From the NCBI RefSeq assembly GCF_007829815.1, contig NZ_VIWT01000001.1, positions 3,123,501 through 3,187,500 of the forward strand: a DNA stretch of 64,000 nucleotides, in the 5' to 3' direction. Below, in pieces: positions 7,169 through 43,400 of the stretch. Position numbers and translations under genes: made by a program. Source of the stretch: Kitasatospora viridis. Lineage in GTDB: Bacteria; Actinomycetota; Actinomycetes; Streptomycetales; Streptomycetaceae. The notes beneath the pieces are model-generated. The model ran no database searches, was not told where the DNA came from, and saw nothing but the letters and a program-made list of their open reading frames with translations. The first letter of the stretch is position 1. Every line of letters starts with the position of its first letter.

Positions 7169-8068
7169 ATGCCACGACCACCGTCACCCGCCAGGCTCGG
7201 CGAACGAGCCCTGGCCTGGGCCTTCCTGCTGCCCTCACTGGCCGTCTTCGCGGTCTTCCTCGGCTACCCGCTCTACCGCACGCTCTACCTGAGCACGCAC
7301 GCCAACGACCTGTTCGGCGCGCCCACCCGGTACATCGGCCTCCAGCACTACGCCGACCTGCTCGGCTCCGCCGAGTTCGCCCGCACCCTCGCCACCACCG
7401 GGCTCTTCGTCCTGCTCACCGTGCTGCCCGGAGTGCTCGGCGCGCTCGCCCTGGTGCTGCTGCTGGAGAGCCGGATCCGCGGCGTGCGGGCCTTCCGCTC
7501 GGCCTTCGCGCTGCCCTTCGCCTTCTCGGTGGCCAGCGCCTCGGTGGTCTTCGGCGTCTTCTACAACCCGGCCACCGGCGTGCTCGACGGGATCCTGTCG
7601 CGGCTCGGCATCGGACCGGTCGCCTGGCTGACCGACTCGAACTGGGCGCTGGTCTCGGTCGCCCTGGTCACGGTCTGGCTCAACCTCGGCTACAACGTCC
7701 TGGTGCTCTCCGCCGGGCTCGGCTCGATCACCCCGGAGATCACCGAGGCGGCCAGGCTGGACGGCGCCGGCGGCTGGCGGCTGGCCCGCTCGGTCACCGT
7801 GCCGCTGCTCGGCCCGCACCTCTTCTTCCTGGTCGTGGTCTCCACCATCAACTCGCTGCAGGCGCTGGGGCAGATCAACATCCTCACGCTGGGCGGCCCG
7901 GACCACTCCACCACCACGCTGAACTACGGGATCTACGAGAAGGCCTTCGCCAACGGCTCCAGCGACTTCGGCTCGGCCAGCGCGCAGGCCGTGGTGCTGC
8001 TGCTGGTGGTGCTCGCCTGCACCGCGGTGCAGTTCGGCGTGGTCGAGCGGAAGGTGCACTACTCGTGA
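7169..8068 (+). CDS. ABC sugar/glycerophosphate importer permease, MalF/UgpA type
   Basis: A 299-residue inner-membrane subunit with six predicted transmembrane segments. The cytoplasmic EAA loop that docks the ATPase is EAARLDGAGGWRLARSVTVPLLGP at about residues 190-215, with the conserved Gly. The chosen ATG is preceded by GGGGAAGGA with 5-6 base spacing; the open frame extends further up without a ribosome site. It is the first gene of a three-gene operon (two permeases, then the binding protein), and its stop overlaps the next start by four bases. No ATPase gene follows, so a shared ATPase such as MsiK, encoded elsewhere, probably powers it. A 14-bp palindrome at 7096-7109 upstream could be an operator. 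Confidence 0.9.
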   Translation: MPRPPSPARLGERALAWAFLLPSLAVFAVFLGYPLYRTLYLSTHANDLFGAPTRYIGLQHYADLLGSAEFARTLATTGLFVLLTVLPGVLGALALVLLLESRIRGVRAFRSAFALPFAFSVASASVVFGVFYNPATGVLDGILSRLGIGPVAWLTDSNWALVSVALVTVWLNLGYNVLVLSAGLGSITPEITEAARLDGAGGWRLARSVTVPLLGPHLFFLVVVSTINSLQALGQINILTLGGPDHSTTTLNYGIYEKAFANGSSDFGSASAQAVVLLLVVLACTAVQFGVVERKVHYS

Positions 8069-8883
8069 GGACCGTCCTGGGCCGCGCCGCGGTCTACCTG
8101 CTGCTCGGGGTGGCCGCACTGGCCGTCTGCTTCCCCATCTACTACGTGCTGGCCGGCGCCTTCATGACGCCCGCCGACCTGGCCACCTACCCGCCCGCGC
8201 TGCTGCCGCACCACGTGACCCTGGGCAACTTCGGCGGCGCCGCCCGCTCGGTGCCGCTCGGCCGGCAGTACCTCAACTCGGTGCTGGTGGCCACCGTGAT
8301 CACCCTCGCCCAGCTGCTCACCTCGATCCTGGCCGCCTACGCGCTGGTCTTCCTGCCGCTGCGCGGGCGCGGCGCGGTCTTCGGGATCTTCCTGGCCACC
8401 CTGATGGTGCCGTGGGAGGCCGTGATCATCCCCAACTACCTGACGCTGTCCGACTGGGGACTGAGCAACAGCTACTCCGCGCTGGTGCTGCCCTTCCTGG
8501 CCTCCGCCTTCGGCACCTTCATGCTCCGTCAGGCCTTCCGGCAGTTCCCGGCCGAACTGCGGGACGCGGCCCGGATCGACGGCGCCGGCCACTGGCGGTT
8601 CCTCTGGCGGATCCTGGTGCCGCTGAACAAGCCGGCGCTGGCCGCGATCGCCGTCTACGTCTTCCTCTCGGCCTGGAACCAGTACTTCTGGCCGCTGATC
8701 ATCACCCGCACCGCGCAGATGCAGACCCTGCAGATCGGCCTGGCGAGCCTGCGCAGCGCGGACAACGCCGACCCCGGGCTGATCCTCGCCGGGGTGCTGC
8801 TCTCGCTGCTGCCGACGCTGCTCCTGGTGGTCTTCGGCCAGCGCTTCATCGTGCGCGGGCTGACCGCCGGCGCGGTCCGGTGA
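8065..8883 (+). CDS. ABC importer permease, MalG/UgpE type
   Basis: A 272-residue second membrane subunit, with GTG start overlapping the previous stop as GTGA (translational coupling). It has six predicted membrane segments and an EAA-like loop (ELRDAARIDGAGHWRFLWRILVPLNKP) at about residues 165-190. Phrases such as CFPIYYVLAGAF near the N terminus and AWNQYFWPLI after the loop are typical of the carbohydrate uptake-1 (CUT1) family. It pairs with the preceding permease to form the heterodimeric channel. The only gap to the next gene is 32 bases, which holds a strong SD for the binding-protein gene. Confidence 0.9.
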   Translation: MRTVLGRAAVYLLLGVAALAVCFPIYYVLAGAFMTPADLATYPPALLPHHVTLGNFGGAARSVPLGRQYLNSVLVATVITLAQLLTSILAAYALVFLPLRGRGAVFGIFLATLMVPWEAVIIPNYLTLSDWGLSNSYSALVLPFLASAFGTFMLRQAFRQFPAELRDAARIDGAGHWRFLWRILVPLNKPALAAIAVYVFLSAWNQYFWPLIITRTAQMQTLQIGLASLRSADNADPGLILAGVLLSLLPTLLLVVFGQRFIVRGLTAGAVR

Positions 8884-34968: not shown

Positions 34969-35424
34969 TCATGCCCGGTGGAAGGGCCGGAGGACGAGCC
35001 GCATCGTCCGGGGGCTCGGTGTGAAGCCGAGCGATGCGTACAGCGGCGCACCAACGTCACTGGCCGTGAGGGTGAGCAGTGTGCAGCCCTGGTCGGTCAG
35101 CCACTCCACAAGCGCGTAGGTGACGGCTCGTCCGTAGCCGCGTCGGCGGAACGGCCATCCGGTGACGACCGTCTGCACCTGCCCGAAGATTCCGGCATGG
35201 TCGGGCCCGGGGAGGCCCTGGTGGACGAGGCCGATCGCACACGCAGTGATGTCACCGCCCGGGCCCTCGATCACGAACGCGGCGACCCGGTCCCCGCCCA
35301 ACTGCGAACGCAAGTACTCGGCGAGTCGGTCGCGCCACGGCCCAGAGGTATCGACCCCCACCATCTCGGCGTGCAGGATCGCGAGTTCGTCGGCATCGGT
35401 CGGCGAGGCCCGGCGTACGTTCAG
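34969..35424 (-). CDS. GNAT-family N-acetyltransferase with apparent CTG start
   Basis: A 151-residue acetyl-CoA-dependent acetyltransferase. The first beta strand is NVRRASPTDADELAILHAEM. The acetyl-CoA loop is RRRGYGRAVTYALVEWL (Q/RxxGxG/A motif, about 93-110), and the C-terminal LYASLGFTPSPRTMRLVL matches the family. The frame holds no ATG, GTG or TTG before this first strand. CTG at 35422-35424 fits precisely and overlaps the upstream stop as CTGA, so coupled initiation at CTG is likely. An ATG at residue 21 would remove the first strand. It is the last gene of a four-gene overlapping operon in the accessory segment, and it ends 4 bases from the convergent lysR stop. The substrate is unknown. 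Confidence 0.8.
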   Translation of the reverse strand: MNVRRASPTDADELAILHAEMVGVDTSGPWRDRLAEYLRSQLGGDRVAAFVIEGPGGDITACAIGLVHQGLPGPDHAGIFGQVQTVVTGWPFRRRGYGRAVTYALVEWLTDQGCTLLTLTASDVGAPLYASLGFTPSPRTMRLVLRPFHRA

Positions 35425-36263
35425 AGCGGCACCGCCGACAGCAGGTCGGCGAGTCCGCCCGCCGTGGACCGCTCCGTGCCGGGAGCGGTGAGAACCCTGG
35501 CGAGCTGCGCCTGGAGCTCCGGCCACGGTCGTGCGCTGCACAGCGGGATGCCGGAGGCGATCGCCACCCGCAGGCCGTCCGGGCTGCTGCCCTTCACATC
35601 GACTCCGGCGGCTTCGTAGTCCAGGGGCCACCGGCCGGTGACGCAGGTCCACAAGGTCCCGGCAAGCGCGTACACGTCCGATGCGGCTGTTGGTCTCACC
35701 GGCTGGGGGCCACGAGCGATCCTGGCGGCGAGCTCCGGCGCGATCAGGTGCGTGATTCCGCCGTTGAACTCCCACCATGGGTCGGTGCCTTCGCGCCAGG
35801 ACCAGGCGAAGTCGATCAGCCGGACCCCACCAGCCGTGTGGATGCCGTGGGACGGTTGAAGGTCCCCGTGTACCCAGCCGGTGGCGTGGAAGTCGGCGAC
35901 GGCCCGGCACAGGGCAACAGCCCCAGCGAGAGCGGTGATGCGGCCGTTCTGCCCGTCCCGCACTGCCTGGAACAACTCCCAGGTGGACGGCCCGTTCAGC
36001 CAGGGCGTGGCGTACCAGACATCGGCGCCGGAGCGTCCTGCGAGTACGGTGCAGCCCGGCAGGGCATCGAGCACCGCCGCCTCCCGCGCCGTGGTCTCCG
36101 CGCCGACGCCGTACCCGAGTTTGACCGCCACCGAGCCGAGCGGGCCGGTGGCCTGCCACACCGCAGAACCGCGCCGGTCGGTGACCTCTCTCAATTGCAC
36201 AGGTCCACACAGCGCCTGTGCGGCAGCTACCGCTTCGGGGGGACAGGGAGCGAACCGGCCCAT
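35421..36263 (-). CDS. Hanks-type kinase-like protein with variant catalytic motifs
   Basis: A 280-residue protein with an essentially complete protein-kinase core in a compact form. The VAVK lysine is K48, the alpha-C glutamate candidate E61, the catalytic loop VHGDLQPSH with D134, the DFG position DFA at 151-153, APE at 175-177, and the F-helix Asp in SDVYALAGTL (D196). The glycine-rich loop is not obvious. HGDLQPSH in place of HRDLKPxN and DFA in place of DFG set it apart from classic Ser/Thr kinases and make it closer to small-molecule or atypical kinases. It is cytoplasmic, with no membrane segment or PASTA. ATG 36263 has GGAAGG ahead and overlaps the DUF6875-like gene by 37 bases. The target may be a product of the neighbouring genes. 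Confidence 0.75.
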   Translation of the reverse strand: MGRFAPCPPEAVAAAQALCGPVQLREVTDRRGSAVWQATGPLGSVAVKLGYGVGAETTAREAAVLDALPGCTVLAGRSGADVWYATPWLNGPSTWELFQAVRDGQNGRITALAGAVALCRAVADFHATGWVHGDLQPSHGIHTAGGVRLIDFAWSWREGTDPWWEFNGGITHLIAPELAARIARGPQPVRPTAASDVYALAGTLWTCVTGRWPLDYEAAGVDVKGSSPDGLRVAIASGIPLCSARPWPELQAQLARVLTAPGTERSTAGGLADLLSAVPL

Positions 36264-36925
36264 GCCCGTACCGCCTTCCACTCACAGGGGATGTGCTCGA
36301 ACACGTCTCTTCCGTCGTCGTCGGCCACCGCCAGCGCATGTGCGAGATCGGGTGTGTCCCTCAGGAACCGCGGATCACTGTGCCGAACTGCGGCCCGCAC
36401 CGGAAGGAACGAGAACGGAGGTGGCGGGATGCTCCGGCCGAACTTGTCACGCTCGCCGGCTCCCTGGGTGAACTTGCCGAACATCACGCCCACGGGCCCG
36501 TAGAGATGCTTCAACGCCCAGTGCGGCCAGGTCATCAACTCGCGGTGGTCGGCGTCTGGGACGCTGCCCGTGATGACGATGTTCTCGCAGACGAGCGCGC
36601 CCTGTGAGTGGGCGAGTTGTGGTCGGATCCACTCCGCTCCCCGAACAGCGGCATGGAACAGCTCGGCTTCGACCGCGTCCCGGTGGGCTCCGGGCGCGAT
36701 CTCGTACACCGTCCAACCGGTCAGTCCACGCCGGATGGATGGTTCCAGGAACGGGCAGTGCCCGACCATCGCCATGGTGTAGCCGGTGGTGTCCACAGTG
36801 GTCGGACTCGGCGAGCGGGACTCGATGAGGCGGAGCGCCCCGGTGGTGGACCGGGACGCTCCGTCGTTGTGCACGGCGTTCAACGGGTCACCGGGTGTTC
36901 CCGGCCGGAGCGTTGCCGTCGTCAC
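36227..36925 (-). CDS. DUF6875-like protein
   Basis: A 232-residue cytoplasmic protein. The core, from about residue 50, has GHCPFLEPSIRRGLTGWTV, then LYGPVGVMFGKFTQG, and a Pro-rich block IPPPPFSFLPVRAAVRHSDPRFL. This arrangement (CPF, a Gly-rich centre, then a PxPxLxxR-type strand before a DxxFL) resembles the uncharacterised DUF6875 family; I could not confirm it by search. The GTG at 36925 is the ORF limit and GTG 36874 is an alternative 13 bases past the previous stop. It overlaps both neighbours (38 and 37 bases at the starts chosen), which implies tight co-translation with the kinase-like gene. Confidence 0.6.
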   Translation of the reverse strand: MTTATLRPGTPGDPLNAVHNDGASRSTTGALRLIESRSPSPTTVDTTGYTMAMVGHCPFLEPSIRRGLTGWTVYEIAPGAHRDAVEAELFHAAVRGAEWIRPQLAHSQGALVCENIVITGSVPDADHRELMTWPHWALKHLYGPVGVMFGKFTQGAGERDKFGRSIPPPPFSFLPVRAAVRHSDPRFLRDTPDLAHALAVADDDGRDVFEHIPCEWKAVRAWAGSLPVPPKR

Positions 36926-37307
36926 CGTCGCCGGGGGCCGGCGCGCAGTTCCACTCAGCGACCACGTGGCCGGTCTCCCGGTAGGCGATGAGCGCCGCGG
37001 TGTCGACGACTCCGTCGGCGTTGGTGAACCAGATTTCCGGAAGCGCGCCGTACGCCTCCTCGTAGGCGGCCACCCACTCGATGAACCCCCGGCCGCTCGT
37101 CTCCGAATGGGTGATCACGCGCCCGGCGTGCTCCGCGGTGAACGCACGGTGCGCCTCGGCGTCCTCGGCGAGTCGGTGCCAGGCGGCGTCGATCGCCGTG
37201 CTGAACATCTCGGGCGCGCTCTGCCCGGCGTCGAAGCGGCGCGCGGCGATGCCGAAGAACTTGCCGAGCTCGACGAGTTCGATGCTGGTTCCGGTGGGGG
37301 TGCTCAT
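36888..37307 (-). CDS. Uncharacterised 139-residue protein, first gene of the accessory operon
   Basis: A cytoplasmic protein with pattern AWHRLAEDAEAHRAF, then HAGRVITHSETSG, AYEEAYGALPEIWFTNADG and a closing VVAEWNCAP. This weakly recalls the glycine-rich-domain-like family (WHxxLxDxxxYxxFC, then GxxIHH), though the first Cys and one His are missing. I would not name a function. The start ATG has a strong AGGAGGAGCAC sequence. It is divergent from the glycosyltransferase gene (76-bp gap) and leads a chain of four overlapping genes. Confidence 0.65.
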   Translation of the reverse strand: MSTPTGTSIELVELGKFFGIAARRFDAGQSAPEMFSTAIDAAWHRLAEDAEAHRAFTAEHAGRVITHSETSGRGFIEWVAAYEEAYGALPEIWFTNADGVVDTAALIAYRETGHVVAEWNCAPAPGDGDDGNAPAGNTR

Positions 37308-37383
37308 GTGCTCCTCCTGCGGGTATCAGCCGCGGTCTTGCGGCTACAGTTAGTGAACCTTTGATCACGCAACTGGAGTACCG

Positions 37384-38337
37384 TTGGACAGTGGGAAGCC
37401 CGTTCAAAGTGTTCAAGATCCAACCCAGGGGCACATCTTGACCGAGAGTCCGACAGTCGATGGCCGAGGTCTCACGGTGGGCGTGGTCGTGCTGACGATG
37501 GGGGACCGGTCCGATGAACTGCGCGCTCTGCTGGAGTCCGTGGCGGCCCAGGAGGGCGATTCCGCGGTGGTCGTCGTGCTTGGCCAGGGCGTACGGCTTC
37601 CCGAACTTCCCCCGGAGGTCGCCGGGGTGGAGTTGCCGGAGAACCTCGGCATCCCGGGGGGCCGGAACAAGGGCGTGGAGTGGTTGCGCGACTGTGGCGG
37701 TGTGGATCTGGTCGTGATCCTGGACGACGACGGGCTGCTCCCGAGGACGGACACCTTTCGTCTCGTCCGGGAGGCGTTCGCCGCCAACTCCCATCTGGGA
37801 GTGGTGAGTTTCCGGATCGTGGACGAGGACGGGCAGACGGCGCGCCGGCATGTGCCACGCCTCGGCGCCTCCGACCCGCTGCGCTCATCCGAGGTCACCA
37901 CGTTCCTCGGTGGCGCGCACGCCATCCGGATGAGCGTGATCGACCAAGTCGGCGAGTTCCCGGCGGCCTTCTTCTATGCGCACGAGGAGACGGATTTCGC
38001 ATGGCGTGCGTTGGATGCCGGCTGGGAGATCCACTACCGGTCCGACCTGGTCCTCAGGCATCCCCGAACCAATCCTGCCCGGCACGCCACGTACTACCGG
38101 CTCACGGCACGCAACCGGGTGTGGCTGGCCAAGCGGCACTTGCCGGCCGTTCTGGTACCGGTGTACCTCGCGTCGTGGACCGCCTACACCGTGGCCCGCA
38201 GGCCTCCGCTGGCCGGACTCAGGGCATGGTGGGCGGGATTCTTCGAGGGAGTGCGGACCCCGTCTCCGCCGCGCCGACCGATGCGGTGGCGCACGGTCTG
38301 GCGGATGGCGCGGCTGGGTCGGCCGCCGGTGATCTGA
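37384..38337 (+). CDS. Family 2 glycosyltransferase
   Basis: A 317-residue GT-A fold enzyme that transfers a sugar from a nucleotide donor. The nucleotide-binding start is LTVGVVVLTMGDRSDELRALLESV (about 30-53). NLGIPGGRNKGVEWL and the metal-binding LDDDG (about 116-120) are typical of rhamnosyl- and related transferases. HEETDFAWRALDAGWEI carries the ED-type catalytic acid. A C-terminal hydrophobic patch may contact the membrane. The start is TTG 37384 with GGAG 5 bases ahead; TTG 37438 is an alternative. It is divergent from the four-gene operon and upstream of a TPR regulator on the same strand. Acceptor unknown. It sits in the lower-GC accessory segment. Confidence 0.85.
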   Translation: MDSGKPVQSVQDPTQGHILTESPTVDGRGLTVGVVVLTMGDRSDELRALLESVAAQEGDSAVVVVLGQGVRLPELPPEVAGVELPENLGIPGGRNKGVEWLRDCGGVDLVVILDDDGLLPRTDTFRLVREAFAANSHLGVVSFRIVDEDGQTARRHVPRLGASDPLRSSEVTTFLGGAHAIRMSVIDQVGEFPAAFFYAHEETDFAWRALDAGWEIHYRSDLVLRHPRTNPARHATYYRLTARNRVWLAKRHLPAVLVPVYLASWTAYTVARRPPLAGLRAWWAGFFEGVRTPSPPRRPMRWRTVWRMARLGRPPVI

Positions 38338-38380
38338 CGGTCCGTAGGTCGAGTTCGAGAGCGGTACCGGGGGTGAGTTG

Positions 38381-39739
38381 GTGATTCGAAGGGAACCGAA
38401 CGAGCAACTGGCCGCTGTGATCGCGGAAGCCGGATGCACGTACGAGGTCCTGGCCAAGCAGGTCCGGGTCGTCGCAGCCGAAGCGGGTGAGGCCCTCCAC
38501 ACGTCACGGTCGGCCGTCTTCTCCTGGGTGAACGGTGGCATCCCGACAGGCAGGACCAGGTCCTACGTCGCCGAAGCTCTGAGCAGGTTGGCGAAGCGAA
38601 AGGTGACAGTCGGTGAGATCGCCCTGGGTTCCGACGAGATGCCGGAGCCGATGAGTGCTGATCCGCTGGCCGCCGCCGCTGACCTCGGGAGATTCGCCAT
38701 GCTGCACCGCAGGGACTTCCTCACCACCACCTTCGCAGCTGCGGCTGTGGGCCTTCCGGTCAGCTACGACCATGGTGCCGTCGCTGTCACGCTCAGGGCC
38801 GCGACCGGAGACGGGGTCGTCGGCACCGGAGAGGTCTCCTCCATCCGGCAACTCACCGAGACCTTCAGGAGCGCGGATGACCGGCTCGGTGGTGGTCACG
38901 GTCTGACCGCAGTCACCGCGTACTTCACGGACACCGTCATCCCATTGCTGTCACGGCGCTTCCCCACCGAGCAAGTCCGCCTTGATGCCTATGGTGCGGC
39001 GGCCACTTTGGCGTGCCTCGCCGGGTGGAAGCACCATGACCTCGGCCGTGAGGGCGCGGCCCAGCGGTTCTACCTCTTGGGCTACCAACTGGCGTGCGAG
39101 TCCGACCCGGCCGGGCACCCGGCCTGGATGATGCGAGCGCTGACGCACCAGGCCCTCGACCTGCGGCAGTCCCGGCACTGTGTGGACTTGGCAGAAGCGG
39201 CGCTGTCCCGCGCACGGGGAAAGGTGGACGGGAGCACCGAGGCACTGCTGCTGGTGACGGCCGCCCGGGCCTACGGTGCCGGCGGTGAGGGTGCGAAGGC
39301 CGCATCCGCGCTGCTTTCGGCCGAGGACGCCATGCTCGGCACCGATGACGCCGTTCCCTCGTACGCGGCCGCTTCCGGACCGGTGGCCGCCACGGTCGCA
39401 TCCCACACGGCCAAGACCCTGACCGAACTCCGCGACCACCGGGCAGCCGAGCGGTACTACCGCCTGGCGCTCCGGGACCGCGTCCCGGAGACGTACCAGC
39501 GGGTGCACGCCCTGACCATGGCGAACCTTGCGAAGTCGGTGGCTGCCCAACGGCGCCACGAGGAGGCCCTGAGCCTGTGGAACAGGTCTTTGGACTTCAT
39601 GGCCGGTGTCGCCTCGGACCGCAACAGGAAGGAGATCACCACCATGCGGTCGATGATGGTCGGCTACCGGAAACGCGGCATCCCCGGCGCTGGAGAGGTC
39701 GACCAGCGGGCGGCCGACATGCTCCGCGCGATGGCGTAG
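38381..39739 (+). CDS. Transcriptional regulator with N-terminal HTH-like region and TPR-rich C terminus
   Basis: A 452-residue protein of the Streptomyces NsdA-like regulator type. An N-terminal region (REPNEQLAAVIAEAGCTYEVLAKQVRVVA, then SRSAVFSWVNGGIPTGRTRSYVAEALS) is an unusual helix-turn-helix resembling XRE proteins. A hydrophobic stretch at about 110-125 (DFLTTTFAAAAVGLPVSYD) looks like a cryptic signal/TAT-type segment common in this group. From about 150 to 440 there are TPR-like helical pairs (RALTHQALDLRQSR; AERYYRLALRDR; VHALTMANLAKSVAAQRRHEEALSLWNRSL). Such proteins may sense a peptide or partner. GTG 38381 is preferred over TTG 38378 by GGGGG spacing. It is co-directional with the glycosyltransferase (43-base gap). 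Confidence 0.8.
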   Translation: MIRREPNEQLAAVIAEAGCTYEVLAKQVRVVAAEAGEALHTSRSAVFSWVNGGIPTGRTRSYVAEALSRLAKRKVTVGEIALGSDEMPEPMSADPLAAAADLGRFAMLHRRDFLTTTFAAAAVGLPVSYDHGAVAVTLRAATGDGVVGTGEVSSIRQLTETFRSADDRLGGGHGLTAVTAYFTDTVIPLLSRRFPTEQVRLDAYGAAATLACLAGWKHHDLGREGAAQRFYLLGYQLACESDPAGHPAWMMRALTHQALDLRQSRHCVDLAEAALSRARGKVDGSTEALLLVTAARAYGAGGEGAKAASALLSAEDAMLGTDDAVPSYAAASGPVAATVASHTAKTLTELRDHRAAERYYRLALRDRVPETYQRVHALTMANLAKSVAAQRRHEEALSLWNRSLDFMAGVASDRNRKEITTMRSMMVGYRKRGIPGAGEVDQRAADMLRAMA

Positions 39740-39780
39740 AGCGCGCGACTCGGCAGGTCGAATGCGGACTGCCTCATGGC

Positions 39781-39981
39781 CTACCCGACGAAGTGGTCGA
39801 ACTCGCCGCGCTTGACGCCCTCCAACCACAGGGCGAACTTCGTGCGGGTCGTGACGACAATGGCCGCAGGTGACGCTGACTCACGAATCTCGATCAGTCC
39901 GTCGCCGTTGACCGACACCTCGACCGAGTTGCCGCCGTCCTGGCTGCTGGACGAGGACTTCTGCCAGTTCTGGCCGGTCAT
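39781..39981 (-). CDS. DUF397 protein (partner of the XRE regulator)
   Basis: A 66-residue protein with the DUF397 hallmark: a WQKSSSSSQDGGNSVEV start (W.KSS), a middle IEIRESASP and an ending FALWLEGVKRGEFDHFV. The Cys often found in the NCVEV position is replaced by Ser (NSVEV). The start overlaps the XRE stop by ATGA. In Streptomyces, DUF397 proteins act with XRE/DUF5753 regulators (BldB/WhiJ-like modules), probably by direct binding. Confidence 0.93.
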   Translation of the reverse strand: MTGQNWQKSSSSSQDGGNSVEVSVNGDGLIEIRESASPAAIVVTTRTKFALWLEGVKRGEFDHFVG

Positions 39982-40886
39982 GACTGCCCTCCCATTTCAA
40001 GGCTGTGTTTGGCGTGCTGAATGACGGCCCACGAGTCCCTGGGCGAGTTCGGCTCGGCGTAGGATTTCGCGTCGCCCGAGGGGAGCGCAAGCCTGCTGAG
40101 GTCGGCGAACCTGGACCGGTAGCGCTGCACGGCTTCCGGGGAATCCGTGAATCCCGAGGCGCCCGGATGGTCGATGACCACGGTCGACAACTCGACCGGG
40201 CCCGGTTCGGCGATCAGGAAGGGGCCGCTGAACGGCGGCGTGGCCCGGACGTTGAACGGGTAGATCTGCACGTCCACGTTCGGCAGCTCCGACACCTTCA
40301 GAAGGTGGGTGAGCTGGCGGCGCATCGCAGCCGCGCCGGCGAAGTTCATCAGCAAGGCAGCTTCGTGCAGGACGAAAGTGAACCGAGTGCGGGCTGAAGA
40401 GGTGAGGATCCGCTGGCGATCGAGTCGGAACCTGACCGTGTCCTCGATCTGGGCTGGGGAAAGGGAAGTGTCGCCGTTCTCGAAGAGGCGGCGAACGTAC
40501 TCCTCGGTCTGGAGCAGCCCGGGTACGAAGAAGGTCTCGTAGTTCAGGTAGCGCGCGATCCCGCTGCTCTCCAACTCGGCCAGGTCGAGCGCAAATCCCG
40601 GAATCCGCCCCTTGTATGAGCTCCACCACCCCTTGCCGCTGCTCGCCCCCATCGTGGCGAGTGCATCCATGTAGGGATCATCCGTGCATCCGTAGAAGCG
40701 CGCCAACGTACGCATGCGCGCCTCGTCCAGGCCGGTTCGCGCCGCCTCGATGTGGTTCAACTGGGGACCGCGAATGCCGATATGCGTGGCTGCGTCCTGC
40801 ACCGCGATGTCGGCGCTGAGGCGCAGTCGACGAAGCTCGGTTCCGAACCGTCGCTGCCGTTCGCTGATCTGCGTTCGCAGTGCCAT
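39978..40886 (-). CDS. XRE-family regulator with DUF5753 domain (WhiJ-like)
   Basis: A 302-residue transcription factor. The helix-turn-helix (about 10-65: FGTELRRLRLSADIAVQDAATHIGIRGPQLNHIEAARTG) is followed by a DUF5753 ligand-type domain (about 95-290: YLNYETFFVPGLLQTEEYVRRLFE, VLHEAAL, VDVQIYPF). Together with the DUF397 protein coupled to it and the divergent ATPase-like gene, it forms the typical development- or antibiotic-related regulatory trio of streptomycetes. ATG 40886 has GAGAGGGGC upstream; the frame extends 59 codons further without family content. Confidence 0.92.
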   Translation of the reverse strand: MALRTQISERQRRFGTELRRLRLSADIAVQDAATHIGIRGPQLNHIEAARTGLDEARMRTLARFYGCTDDPYMDALATMGASSGKGWWSSYKGRIPGFALDLAELESSGIARYLNYETFFVPGLLQTEEYVRRLFENGDTSLSPAQIEDTVRFRLDRQRILTSSARTRFTFVLHEAALLMNFAGAAAMRRQLTHLLKVSELPNVDVQIYPFNVRATPPFSGPFLIAEPGPVELSTVVIDHPGASGFTDSPEAVQRYRSRFADLSRLALPSGDAKSYAEPNSPRDSWAVIQHAKHSLEMGGQS

Positions 40887-41158
40887 TGCTGTCCGCCCCT
40901 CTCGTAGCAGGGGCAGTCTGGCGCGCGGGCATGTCCTGACGCCAACCAGTCCAGGGGAGCGGGCCCACGGGTCTCGCGAACAAGGTTGCACGAATGAACC
41001 CATCTGCTCTACCGTCTGTGATGTTCCCCTCACTGACTGGTCGTCAGGAAGTCCGAAGTGCACCCCGGATGCTTGGCTCGTGCCATGTCGTCAGCCATGG
41101 GGCGAGTCACGGGTGATGGTCAGTCTGAGACGTTGATATGGCTGAACTGGAGAGCCTC

Positions 41159-41584
41159 ATGCGTCTTGTCTCTTCCCTTCCTGTACGGCGCCTGTCGGTT
41201 GGCCCGGTCGATCCCCCGTTTCAACTCCTCGCGCTCGTGGTGCGATCCACCCTGCGGGCCGCGCGCCACCGGCTCCGCGACCACCTCGCCGCTCATGGGC
41301 TCGACCCGGACGACGCGTGTCTCCTGCTCTCCGAGCTGGTGGGCAATGCGCTGCTGCACGGCGGGGACAGCGCCGCAGTCGTCTGGGAGGTGCGTGGCGA
41401 TCGGCTCTACATCGGCGTGGCCGACGGCTCGCCGGCCGAGCTGGCGCTGGTGCCGGACGGCGGCGAACGTGACGGCGGTCGCGGGCTCTTCCTGGTGGAC
41501 CTGCTCGCAGTGGAGTGGGGCGTGCGCCCGCTCGGTGAGAGTGGCAAGGAGATCTGGTGCGAGCTGGCGGTCAAGGCTGCCTGA
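41159..41584 (+). CDS. ATP-binding anti-sigma-like protein (GHKL), partner of the XRE/DUF397 pair
   Basis: A 141-residue RsbW-like protein. N box: LLLSELVGNALLHGG. G1: IGVADGSPAELALVP. G2: GGRGLFLVDLLAVEWGV. It is divergent from the XRE gene, a conserved arrangement in which the three proteins are thought to work together. The ATG at 41159 has GGAGAG 4 bases ahead; an ATG 21 bases earlier also exists with a weaker site. It is the last intact gene before the right copy of the lysR repeat. Confidence 0.88.
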   Translation: MRLVSSLPVRRLSVGPVDPPFQLLALVVRSTLRAARHRLRDHLAAHGLDPDDACLLLSELVGNALLHGGDSAAVVWEVRGDRLYIGVADGSPAELALVPDGGERDGGRGLFLVDLLAVEWGVRPLGESGKEIWCELAVKAA

Positions 41585-41887: not shown

Positions 41888-41920
41888 GGACCGACCGTCA
41901 GGCCCGCGGCCGCAGACTGA
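41705..41920 (+). pseudogene. lysR C-terminal fragment
   Basis: An open frame of 71 codons encoding the last 61 residues of the LysR regulator with four substitutions (for example DPTHLYAW against DPTPLYAW), then ten extra residues ending in TGA at 41918. No start or DNA-binding domain is present, so it cannot make a regulator. Its stop region overlaps the end of the convergent PQQ-repeat gene. It is the counterpart of the intact lysR at 34011 and marks the right edge of the accessory segment. Confidence 0.85.
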
Positions 41921-43400
41921 GGTCCGGGCGGAGCGAACGCGGCTCCGGCCGCGCGCCGACCGCGTCCCGGTGGGTGGCCGGGTCGAGGGCCACGGCGTAG
42001 AGGTTCTGGTCCTCCGAGCCGAAGTACACCCGGCCGTCCGCCACCGTCGGCGAGCCCTCGACGGAGCCGCCGGTGGTGAACGCCCACAGGCGGTTGCCGC
42101 TGGCGGCGTCCAGGGCGTAGAGCCGGCCGTCGAACGACCCGACGTAGACCACGCCGTCGGCCACGGCCGGAGCGGTGCCCACCTGGGGGGCGGCGGCGAA
42201 CGCCCACACCTGGCCGCCGGTGACGGCGTCGAGGGCGTAGACGTTGCCGTCGTCGGAGCCGACGTAGACGGTGCCGTTCGCGACGGCCGGTTCGGTCAGC
42301 ACCTGGTTGCCGGTGGTGAAGGTCCACGCCTGCTTGCCGGTGACGGCGTCGACGGCGTAGACCTTGCCGTCGAGCGAGCCGACGTACACCACGCCGTTGG
42401 CCACGGCCGCGCTGCCGGCCACCGGGCCCCCGGTGCTGAAGGCCCAGCGCTGCGCGCCGGTGGCGGCGTCGAGCGCGTACAGCTTGTCGTCGTACGAGCC
42501 GACGTAGACGACCCCGTCGGCCACGACGGGGGAGCCGCCCACGGCGTTGCCGGTGGTGAAGGCCCAGCGCTGCGCGCCGGTGGCCGCGTCCAGGGCGTAC
42601 ACCTTGCCGTCGAACGAGCCGATGTAGACCAGGCCGCCCACCACGACGGGCGAGGAGACCACGGTGCCGCCGGTGGCGAAGCTCCAGCGGACCGCGCCGG
42701 TGGCCGCGTCCAGCGCGTACACCTTGCGGTCCACCGAGCCGACGTAGACCAAGCCGTTCGCGACGGCCGGACCGGAGATCACCGAGTTGCCGGTGGTGAA
42801 GGTCCAGTGCGACGCGCCGGTGGCCGCGTCCACCGCGTGCACCTGGCCGTCCTCCGAGCCGAAGTAGGCCGTGCCGGCCACGACGGCGGGGGAGGAGGAG
42901 TCGCCGCCGAACGTGCCGACCCGCCAGGACTCCTGCAGCCGGCCCACGGTGCTCGGCGACAGCAGGTTCTCGTACGGGTTCGTCCGGCGGCCCTCGGGCG
43001 TGAAGCCCTGCTCGGTCCAGTCGGTGCGGACCGTGAACGCCGCCTGCGCCGCCTGCGAGCTGCCGCGGTCCACCGCGGTGACCCAGTGCTGCCCCGGCCC
43101 GGCCTCGGCGGGCACGGTGATCCCGACGCTGAACCGGCCCTGGCCGTCGGTCACCGCGAGCGCGTGGTCGTGGTCGTCGAAGTACACGTCCACCGGCTCG
43201 TTCCGCAGCCCGAACCCGGACCCGGACACGGTGACCCGCGTCGTCGGCGGCCCCGCGGACACCGACAGGCTCGCGGCCGGCGGCGCGGCGGCCCCCGCCG
43301 GCGTCGCACCTGGGAGCACCGGGACGAGCGCCGTCCCGGCCAGCACCAGCCCCAGCGGCCAGCTGACCTTCTTCGATCCCCACTGCCTCGGTCCGCGCAT
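41898..43400 (-). CDS. Secreted PQQ-like eight-bladed beta-propeller protein
   Basis: A 500-residue exported protein. The signal peptide is about residues 1-38 (LVLAGTALVPVLPGATPAGAAA). Residues about 40-130 form an Ig/IPT-like domain (TTRVTVSGSGFGL, FDDHDHALAVTDGQGRF). Residues about 165-475 carry eight repeats of about 40 residues, each with VYVGSFDGKVYALDAATGAQRWAF-type sequence. These are PQQ-like/PQQ_2 blades that would close a ring. The repeats are also visible as 120-bp DNA periodicity at 42000-42950. A quinone dehydrogenase would need specific PQQ ligands, which I do not see, so a scaffold or binding role is more likely. ATG 43400 has GAGGGA 6 bases ahead. The 3' end overlaps the lysR remnant. 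Confidence 0.9.
   Translation of the reverse strand: MRGPRQWGSKKVSWPLGLVLAGTALVPVLPGATPAGAAAPPAASLSVSAGPPTTRVTVSGSGFGLRNEPVDVYFDDHDHALAVTDGQGRFSVGITVPAEAGPGQHWVTAVDRGSSQAAQAAFTVRTDWTEQGFTPEGRRTNPYENLLSPSTVGRLQESWRVGTFGGDSSSPAVVAGTAYFGSEDGQVHAVDAATGASHWTFTTGNSVISGPAVANGLVYVGSVDRKVYALDAATGAVRWSFATGGTVVSSPVVVGGLVYIGSFDGKVYALDAATGAQRWAFTTGNAVGGSPVVADGVVYVGSYDDKLYALDAATGAQRWAFSTGGPVAGSAAVANGVVYVGSLDGKVYAVDAVTGKQAWTFTTGNQVLTEPAVANGTVYVGSDDGNVYALDAVTGGQVWAFAAAPQVGTAPAVADGVVYVGSFDGRLYALDAASGNRLWAFTTGGSVEGSPTVADGRVYFGSEDQNLYAVALDPATHRDAVGARPEPRSLRPDLSLRPRA

Follow-up and report, generated by a model that had tools for sequence, protein, structure and literature searches.

A conserved four-gene unit of Kitasatospora viridis as a possible protein-modification cassette

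What could a kinase-like protein, an acetyltransferase and a putative heme enzyme act on in common, and do their genes belong together at all? The question is raised by four minus-strand genes of Kitasatospora viridis at 34969-37307 of the window, that is, the whole 64,000-nucleotide stretch analyzed here (NCBI RefSeq assembly GCF_007829815.1, contig NZ_VIWT01000001.1, positions 3,123,501 to 3,187,500). A first-pass annotation, made from the sequence alone, had called frames for a 139-residue protein (here P139), a DUF6875-like protein, a kinase and a GNAT acetyltransferase, all of which are present, and had proposed a module that also included a divergent glycosyltransferase. The four genes do form a unit, which is conserved and, to judge from the libraries and literature searched, undescribed. 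With a probability of about 0.45 we read it as a mobile protein-modification cassette resembling those for ribosomally synthesized and post-translationally modified peptides (RiPPs), with P139 as its substrate.

How firmly are the four genes linked? When each species was represented by a single genome, scanning gave 56 P139 loci, nearly all from Streptomyces, Kitasatospora, Streptacidiphilus or Actinacidiphila. The DUF6875-like gene accompanies P139 in 50 of them, the kinase in 52 and a GNAT in 48; all four occur in 47, where they follow one another on one strand in the order P139, DUF6875-like, kinase, GNAT. These counts describe P139-bearing loci, as kinases without P139, several of which exist, fall outside a scan seeded in this way. 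Among 150 genomes of the family, 18 had a match to P139 and 17 one to the DUF6875-like protein, for the most part at adjacent positions. Only 5 of 1035 locus pairs have downstream neighbors in common, so the linkage of the four genes is not inherited synteny. Upstream neighbors are common to 213 pairs, probably through DUF6879 and XRE genes; in 26 of the 56 loci a DUF6879 gene precedes the unit on its strand, in 21 together with an XRE gene. Pairwise protein distances among the four genes correlate at 0.77-0.91, values computed without a species-tree control and taken as supporting only. The nearest relatives with the unit are Kitasatospora mediocidica and Kitasatospora sp. GAS204B. The first-pass annotation had staked its module on co-conservation in other genomes, which is what the comparison found, and had recognized no named system with this combination; none turned up in our searches either.

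The genes are also tightly packed, for which overlaps of 38, 37 and 4 bases had been given. The 38-base overlap of P139 and the DUF6875-like gene is an artefact of the start codon, as it requires GTG at 36925. The start supported by relatives is TTG at 36881-36883, 4 bases past the P139 stop (MITAPSDGAS versus LNAVHNDGAS); in most relatives this junction is a 4-base overlap. The 37-base overlap of the DUF6875-like gene with the kinase is plausible and follows from the ATG at 36263, while the GTG at 36281 would extend it to 55, as computed in the nearest relatives. The 4-base overlap of kinase and GNAT is right. It places the GNAT start on a CTG, and relatives with the same GNAT have ATG or GTG at their 4-base overlap; the CTG could be either a rare start or early decay. 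In the loci measured, the overlaps span 22-103 bases for DUF6875-like/kinase and 4-19 bases for kinase/GNAT. Scans for sigma-70-type promoters and terminators gave nothing above chance.

What kind of protein heads the unit? Searches of P139 against Pfam, NCBIfam, PDB sequences and PDB folds returned nothing usable, although a missing fold match does not imply a new fold. Its AlphaFold2 (AF2) model has a predicted local distance difference test (pLDDT) score of 88.5 overall and is confident at residues 9-126, and the tail is predicted to be disordered (pLDDT below 50 at 128-134 and 136-139). D40, W43, H44, H67 and P123 never vary, and W119 and C121 hardly do; in the 48-sequence alignment the GDGD-type tail is conserved as well, with variable final residues.

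An indication of its role comes from related loci. A P139-like family (A5) is a remote homolog of P139 by profile comparison (hhalign probability 84, E 7.8e-6, 66 columns), and its members, 147-174 residues long, precede kinase paralogs of 35-40% identity in six loci of other Streptomyces. In two further loci (L193, L201) the kinase instead follows a free peptide of 39 or 42 residues that ends in NPPTGDSDDGRDY plus two residues, the tail reading NPPTGDSDDGRDYY. A peptide of the same type is fused to the C-terminus of the P139-like protein in L196, with 87.5% identity over 24 residues. P139-like proteins have other partners too: a gene resembling S-adenosylmethionine-dependent methyltransferases follows the P139-like protein in L222 and L224, and a second partner family follows it in L221 and such short peptides in L245 and L246. 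These swaps in front of shared partners indicate that P139-like proteins and short peptides occupy one slot. The P139 tail (C-x-P...GDGD) itself resembles the short peptides in a short, low-complexity match that is only suggestive. Relatives of the NPPTGDSDDGRDY-type peptides in other genomes also precede two further unnamed protein families. An assignment of the P139-like family to GRDP-like (DUF1399) proteins was dropped; four relatives have no such Pfam match. P139 could be a folded protein substrate or a partner that handles metal or heme, and the evidence of exchange and fusion leads us to favor the former. RiPP operons are recognized by a precursor gene beside modifying enzymes: the gene order fits, and exchange and fusion back P139 as a candidate precursor.

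Can the downstream genes tell us about the chemistry? The kinase-like protein (286 residues) retains the lysine, HGDLQP and D(F/L)AW motifs and is weakly similar to Pkinase and to the LanL kinase domain (36.3 bits). This likeness recalls the class III/IV lanthipeptide synthetases, from which it differs in being a kinase only, with no lyase or cyclase domain. Four loci from three genomes (L043, the second copy of G084 (L054), G199 and G081) have the kinase broken into two reading frames around residues 117-171; in L043 the halves, 8265-8774 and 7933-8268 on the minus strand, overlap by 4 bases. The GNAT of the window passes the PF00583 cut-off. GNATs of its type occur in five other loci, which form one clade with the window in the P139 tree (support 96/89), and in 43 loci the GNAT is of another kind (PF13302 in the one member tested). 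The slot has thus once been taken by another GNAT subfamily, so it may be the acetylation as such that is maintained.

The same kinase-GNAT pair is found elsewhere behind graspetide and imiditide-like genes. In G114 it lies downstream of a graspetide operon, the precursor, ATP-grasp and methyltransferase of which score above the cut-offs of TIGR04186, TIGR04187 and TIGR04188; G143 shows the same arrangement. A GRASP_targ precursor at L055:6255-6470 (plus strand) likewise belongs to an operon with the pair behind it. The pair in G161 and the kinase in G027 come after a PIMT gene and a small Gly-rich open reading frame (imiditide-like), and in G134 the kinase follows a 55-residue frame with CECPRCRI; a 55-residue frame ending in PLCECPRCRI directly precedes a close kinase relative in L095 (8896-9063, minus strand). 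In several loci remnants of the DUF6875 3' end precede the kinase. Such remnants suggest recombination at the DUF6875/kinase junction and are consistent with cassette swapping. The unit thus shares its downstream pair with graspetide systems containing PIMT and with imiditides (G114, G143, G161), but has no ATP-grasp, PIMT or GRASP_targ precursor of its own. Graspetide loci are described with XRE-DUF5753/HATPase surroundings (PMC8939145) similar to those near the unit in the window.

The DUF6875 label given to the second protein turned out to be real but sub-threshold in Pfam (20.7-21.0 bits for the window, cut-off 24.5). All 22 local family members match PF21780, with E-values up to 1 and a best of 9.8e-7, and comparison of the family with the DUF6875 profile (hhalign probability 81, E 1.2e-5) brings the Cys of the CPF motif into register. 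On this profile evidence the protein is homologous to DUF6875. C38 of the Cys-Pro motif is present in 22 of 22 members and P39 is nearly invariant. DUF6875 proteins are reported to be heme-binding enzymes that oxidize tryptophan, with a citation of work on cytochrome P422 (PMC13307353). AglA, a YqcI/YcgG enzyme, ligates its heme through Cys44 (PMC12866846), and AglA chains make up five of the six best structure matches to our predicted model (pLDDT 70, with a poor C-terminal quarter), at Z 5.8-6.2 over 137-158 residues. The local family shows no profile homology to YqcI/YcgG (hhalign probability 0.15, E 0.4), nor is a direct profile link between DUF6875 and YqcI/YcgG significant (probability 1.2). 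The protein is like DUF6875 members such as ZigI in profile, in its strands and in having an invariant Cys-Pro pair, but stands in an operon with P139, a kinase and a GNAT; with AglA, its best structural match, it has in common a Cys near the N-terminus, but no significant sequence-profile match. Heme binding by the protein is a prediction.

How might the parts work together? In the proposed scheme P139 would be a ribosomal substrate, made up of a folded carrier domain with a conserved W-x-C-x-P edge and of the GDGD tail, which is acidic and disordered. As a divergent and probably Cys-ligated heme enzyme, the DUF6875-like protein would oxidize a P139 residue, with the invariant Trp as the obvious candidate; the kinase would phosphorylate the tail and the GNAT would acetylate P139. 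The earlier suggestion that the enzymes modify one common molecule survives here as the best reading, with P139 as the likeliest substrate, while the glycosyltransferase drops out and no result pointed to a tRNA or sugar-like compound. That annotation had also found no precursor peptide, and none of useful length fits 37308-37383 (76 bases) or 39740-39780 (41 bases); if P139 is the substrate, a separate one is needless.

Several observations weigh against this scheme. P139 is predicted to be mostly folded, and its conserved W119 and C121 are part of the confidently predicted last strand, not of a free core, which weakens P139 as a simple leader-core precursor. Neither a peptidase nor an exporter consistently accompanies the unit, the genes downstream of it differing among the loci, and L141 has P139 and the kinase with no DUF6875-like gene. 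The local family lacks the two histidines that are invariant in the FH and HD motifs of canonical DUF6875 proteins (A3 residues H136 and H167), the substrates reported for DUF6875 enzymes are small molecules of the free Trp type (PMC13307353), and the AglA match is middling, with a Z of about 6 for a model of pLDDT 70; values below 8 can reflect a common arrangement.

Could the enzymes act on something other than P139? They might tailor a small molecule, the heme enzyme, kinase and GNAT modifying a Trp- or guanidine-like metabolite while P139 serves as an accessory or metal/heme-handling protein. The invariant or nearly invariant D40, H44, H67 and C121 could form a metal site, and the kinase motif resembles those of small-molecule phosphotransferases. 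Substrates of DUF6875 and YqcI/YcgG enzymes are reported as small molecules (PMC13307353; PMC12866846). We nevertheless consider this explanation unlikely, as no biosynthetic gene for such a metabolite is conserved with the unit in the 56 loci, and elsewhere this kinase-GNAT pair stands behind operons with RiPP precursors.

Less likely again is a signaling or regulatory module, in which P139 would be a sensor or adaptor that is phosphorylated and acetylated and works with XRE, DUF397 and DUF6879 regulators. The frequent DUF6879 and XRE genes upstream speak for it, as do the folded state of P139 in the AF2 model and the control of antibiotic production and differentiation by XRE-DUF397 pairs in Streptomyces coelicolor (PMC10364602). 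Yet like regulators adjoin graspetide loci and have been proposed as guides to natural-product genes (PMC13097080; PMC8939145), and a heme enzyme would be unusual in a signaling unit. A role in defense, or as a toxin-antitoxin system, within a mobile island would suit the sporadic distribution, the islands with XRE regulators and the weak similarity of the kinase to the PD-T4-6 and MkoA profiles; PADLOC gave no match for P139, the DUF6875-like protein or the GNAT and matched the kinase only generically, for which we set this function aside as highly improbable.

What surrounds the unit? The glycosyltransferase and the TPR-type regulator reported beside it are both there, as a GT2 and an NsdA-family gene, but they stand divergent to the unit in only 1 of the 56 loci. 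With conservation in one other locus only, they are ruled out as its parts. The GC content at 35-41 kb is 65-71%, compared with mostly 70-77% on the flanks, a dip consistent with an island. Further along, at 41898-43400 on the minus strand, a 500-residue protein with many YALDAATG-type repeats resembles PQQ-repeat proteins.

Table 1. Coordinates of the unit, its motifs, its neighbors in the window and informative features of related loci.
Feature	Position	Strand	Basis or remark
P139, first gene, proposed substrate	36888..37307	-	56 homologous loci; AF2 pLDDT 88.5
P139 motif A-E-W-(N/D)-C-x-P, residues 117-123	36939..36959	-	W119, C121 in 47/48 and P123 in 48/48 sequences
P139 acidic Gly/Asp tail with GDGD core, residues 127-139	36891..36929	-	pLDDT and conservation
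DUF6875-like protein, predicted heme-binding oxygenase	36227..36883	-	TTG start, stop included; PF21780, hhalign, AglA structure match
Invariant Cys (C38) codon, (H)CPFL motif, candidate heme ligand	36755..36757	-	22/22; aligns with DUF6875 CP Cys
Kinase-like protein	35421..36263	-	ATG start, GTG 36281 alternative; weak Pkinase/LanL-kinase likeness; motifs; 52/56 loci
GNAT acetyltransferase	34969..35424	-	CTG start (35422-35424); PF00583 29.1 bits, cut-off 20.7
GT2 glycosyltransferase, divergent neighbor, no conserved part	37384..38337	+	PF00535 25.4 bits; beside unit in 1/56 loci
NsdA-family TPR-like regulator, neighbor	38378..39739	+	NF053720 326 bits; beside unit in 1/56 loci
DUF397 protein and XRE-DUF5753 regulator pair, island context	39781..41063	-	PF04149 39.4 bits, PF19054 155.1 bits
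HATPase_c_2 protein, island context	41138..41584	+	PF13581 28.6 bits
Short peptide before LanL-like kinase	L193:6983-7102	+	ends around NPPTGDSDDGRDY
Short peptide before LanL-like kinase	L201:7888-8016	-	ends around NPPTGDSDDGRDY
P139-like protein with fused peptide	L196:7754-8278	-	same NPPTGDSDDGRDY sequence

A further step, and a doubtful one, would be to see in the unit a RiPP-like class of a new kind. Its precursor would be a P139-like carrier domain, folded and exchangeable, that ends in a short C-terminal tail, or else that tail by itself as a free peptide. A heme enzyme of the DUF6875 type, a kinase standing alone and a GNAT would modify it, and the whole would belong to a larger network of swappable precursor and partner cassettes in streptomycetes. 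For the unannotated P139 family itself, the mobile cassette with P139 as substrate turns a nameless protein into a directly testable substrate hypothesis. If it is true, RiPP-type chemistry would extend to a heme enzyme family that was recently tied to tryptophan oxidation, P139 would become a searchable marker for dozens of cryptic clusters, and the kinase-GNAT pairs would appear to be portable add-ons common to several peptide-modification systems.

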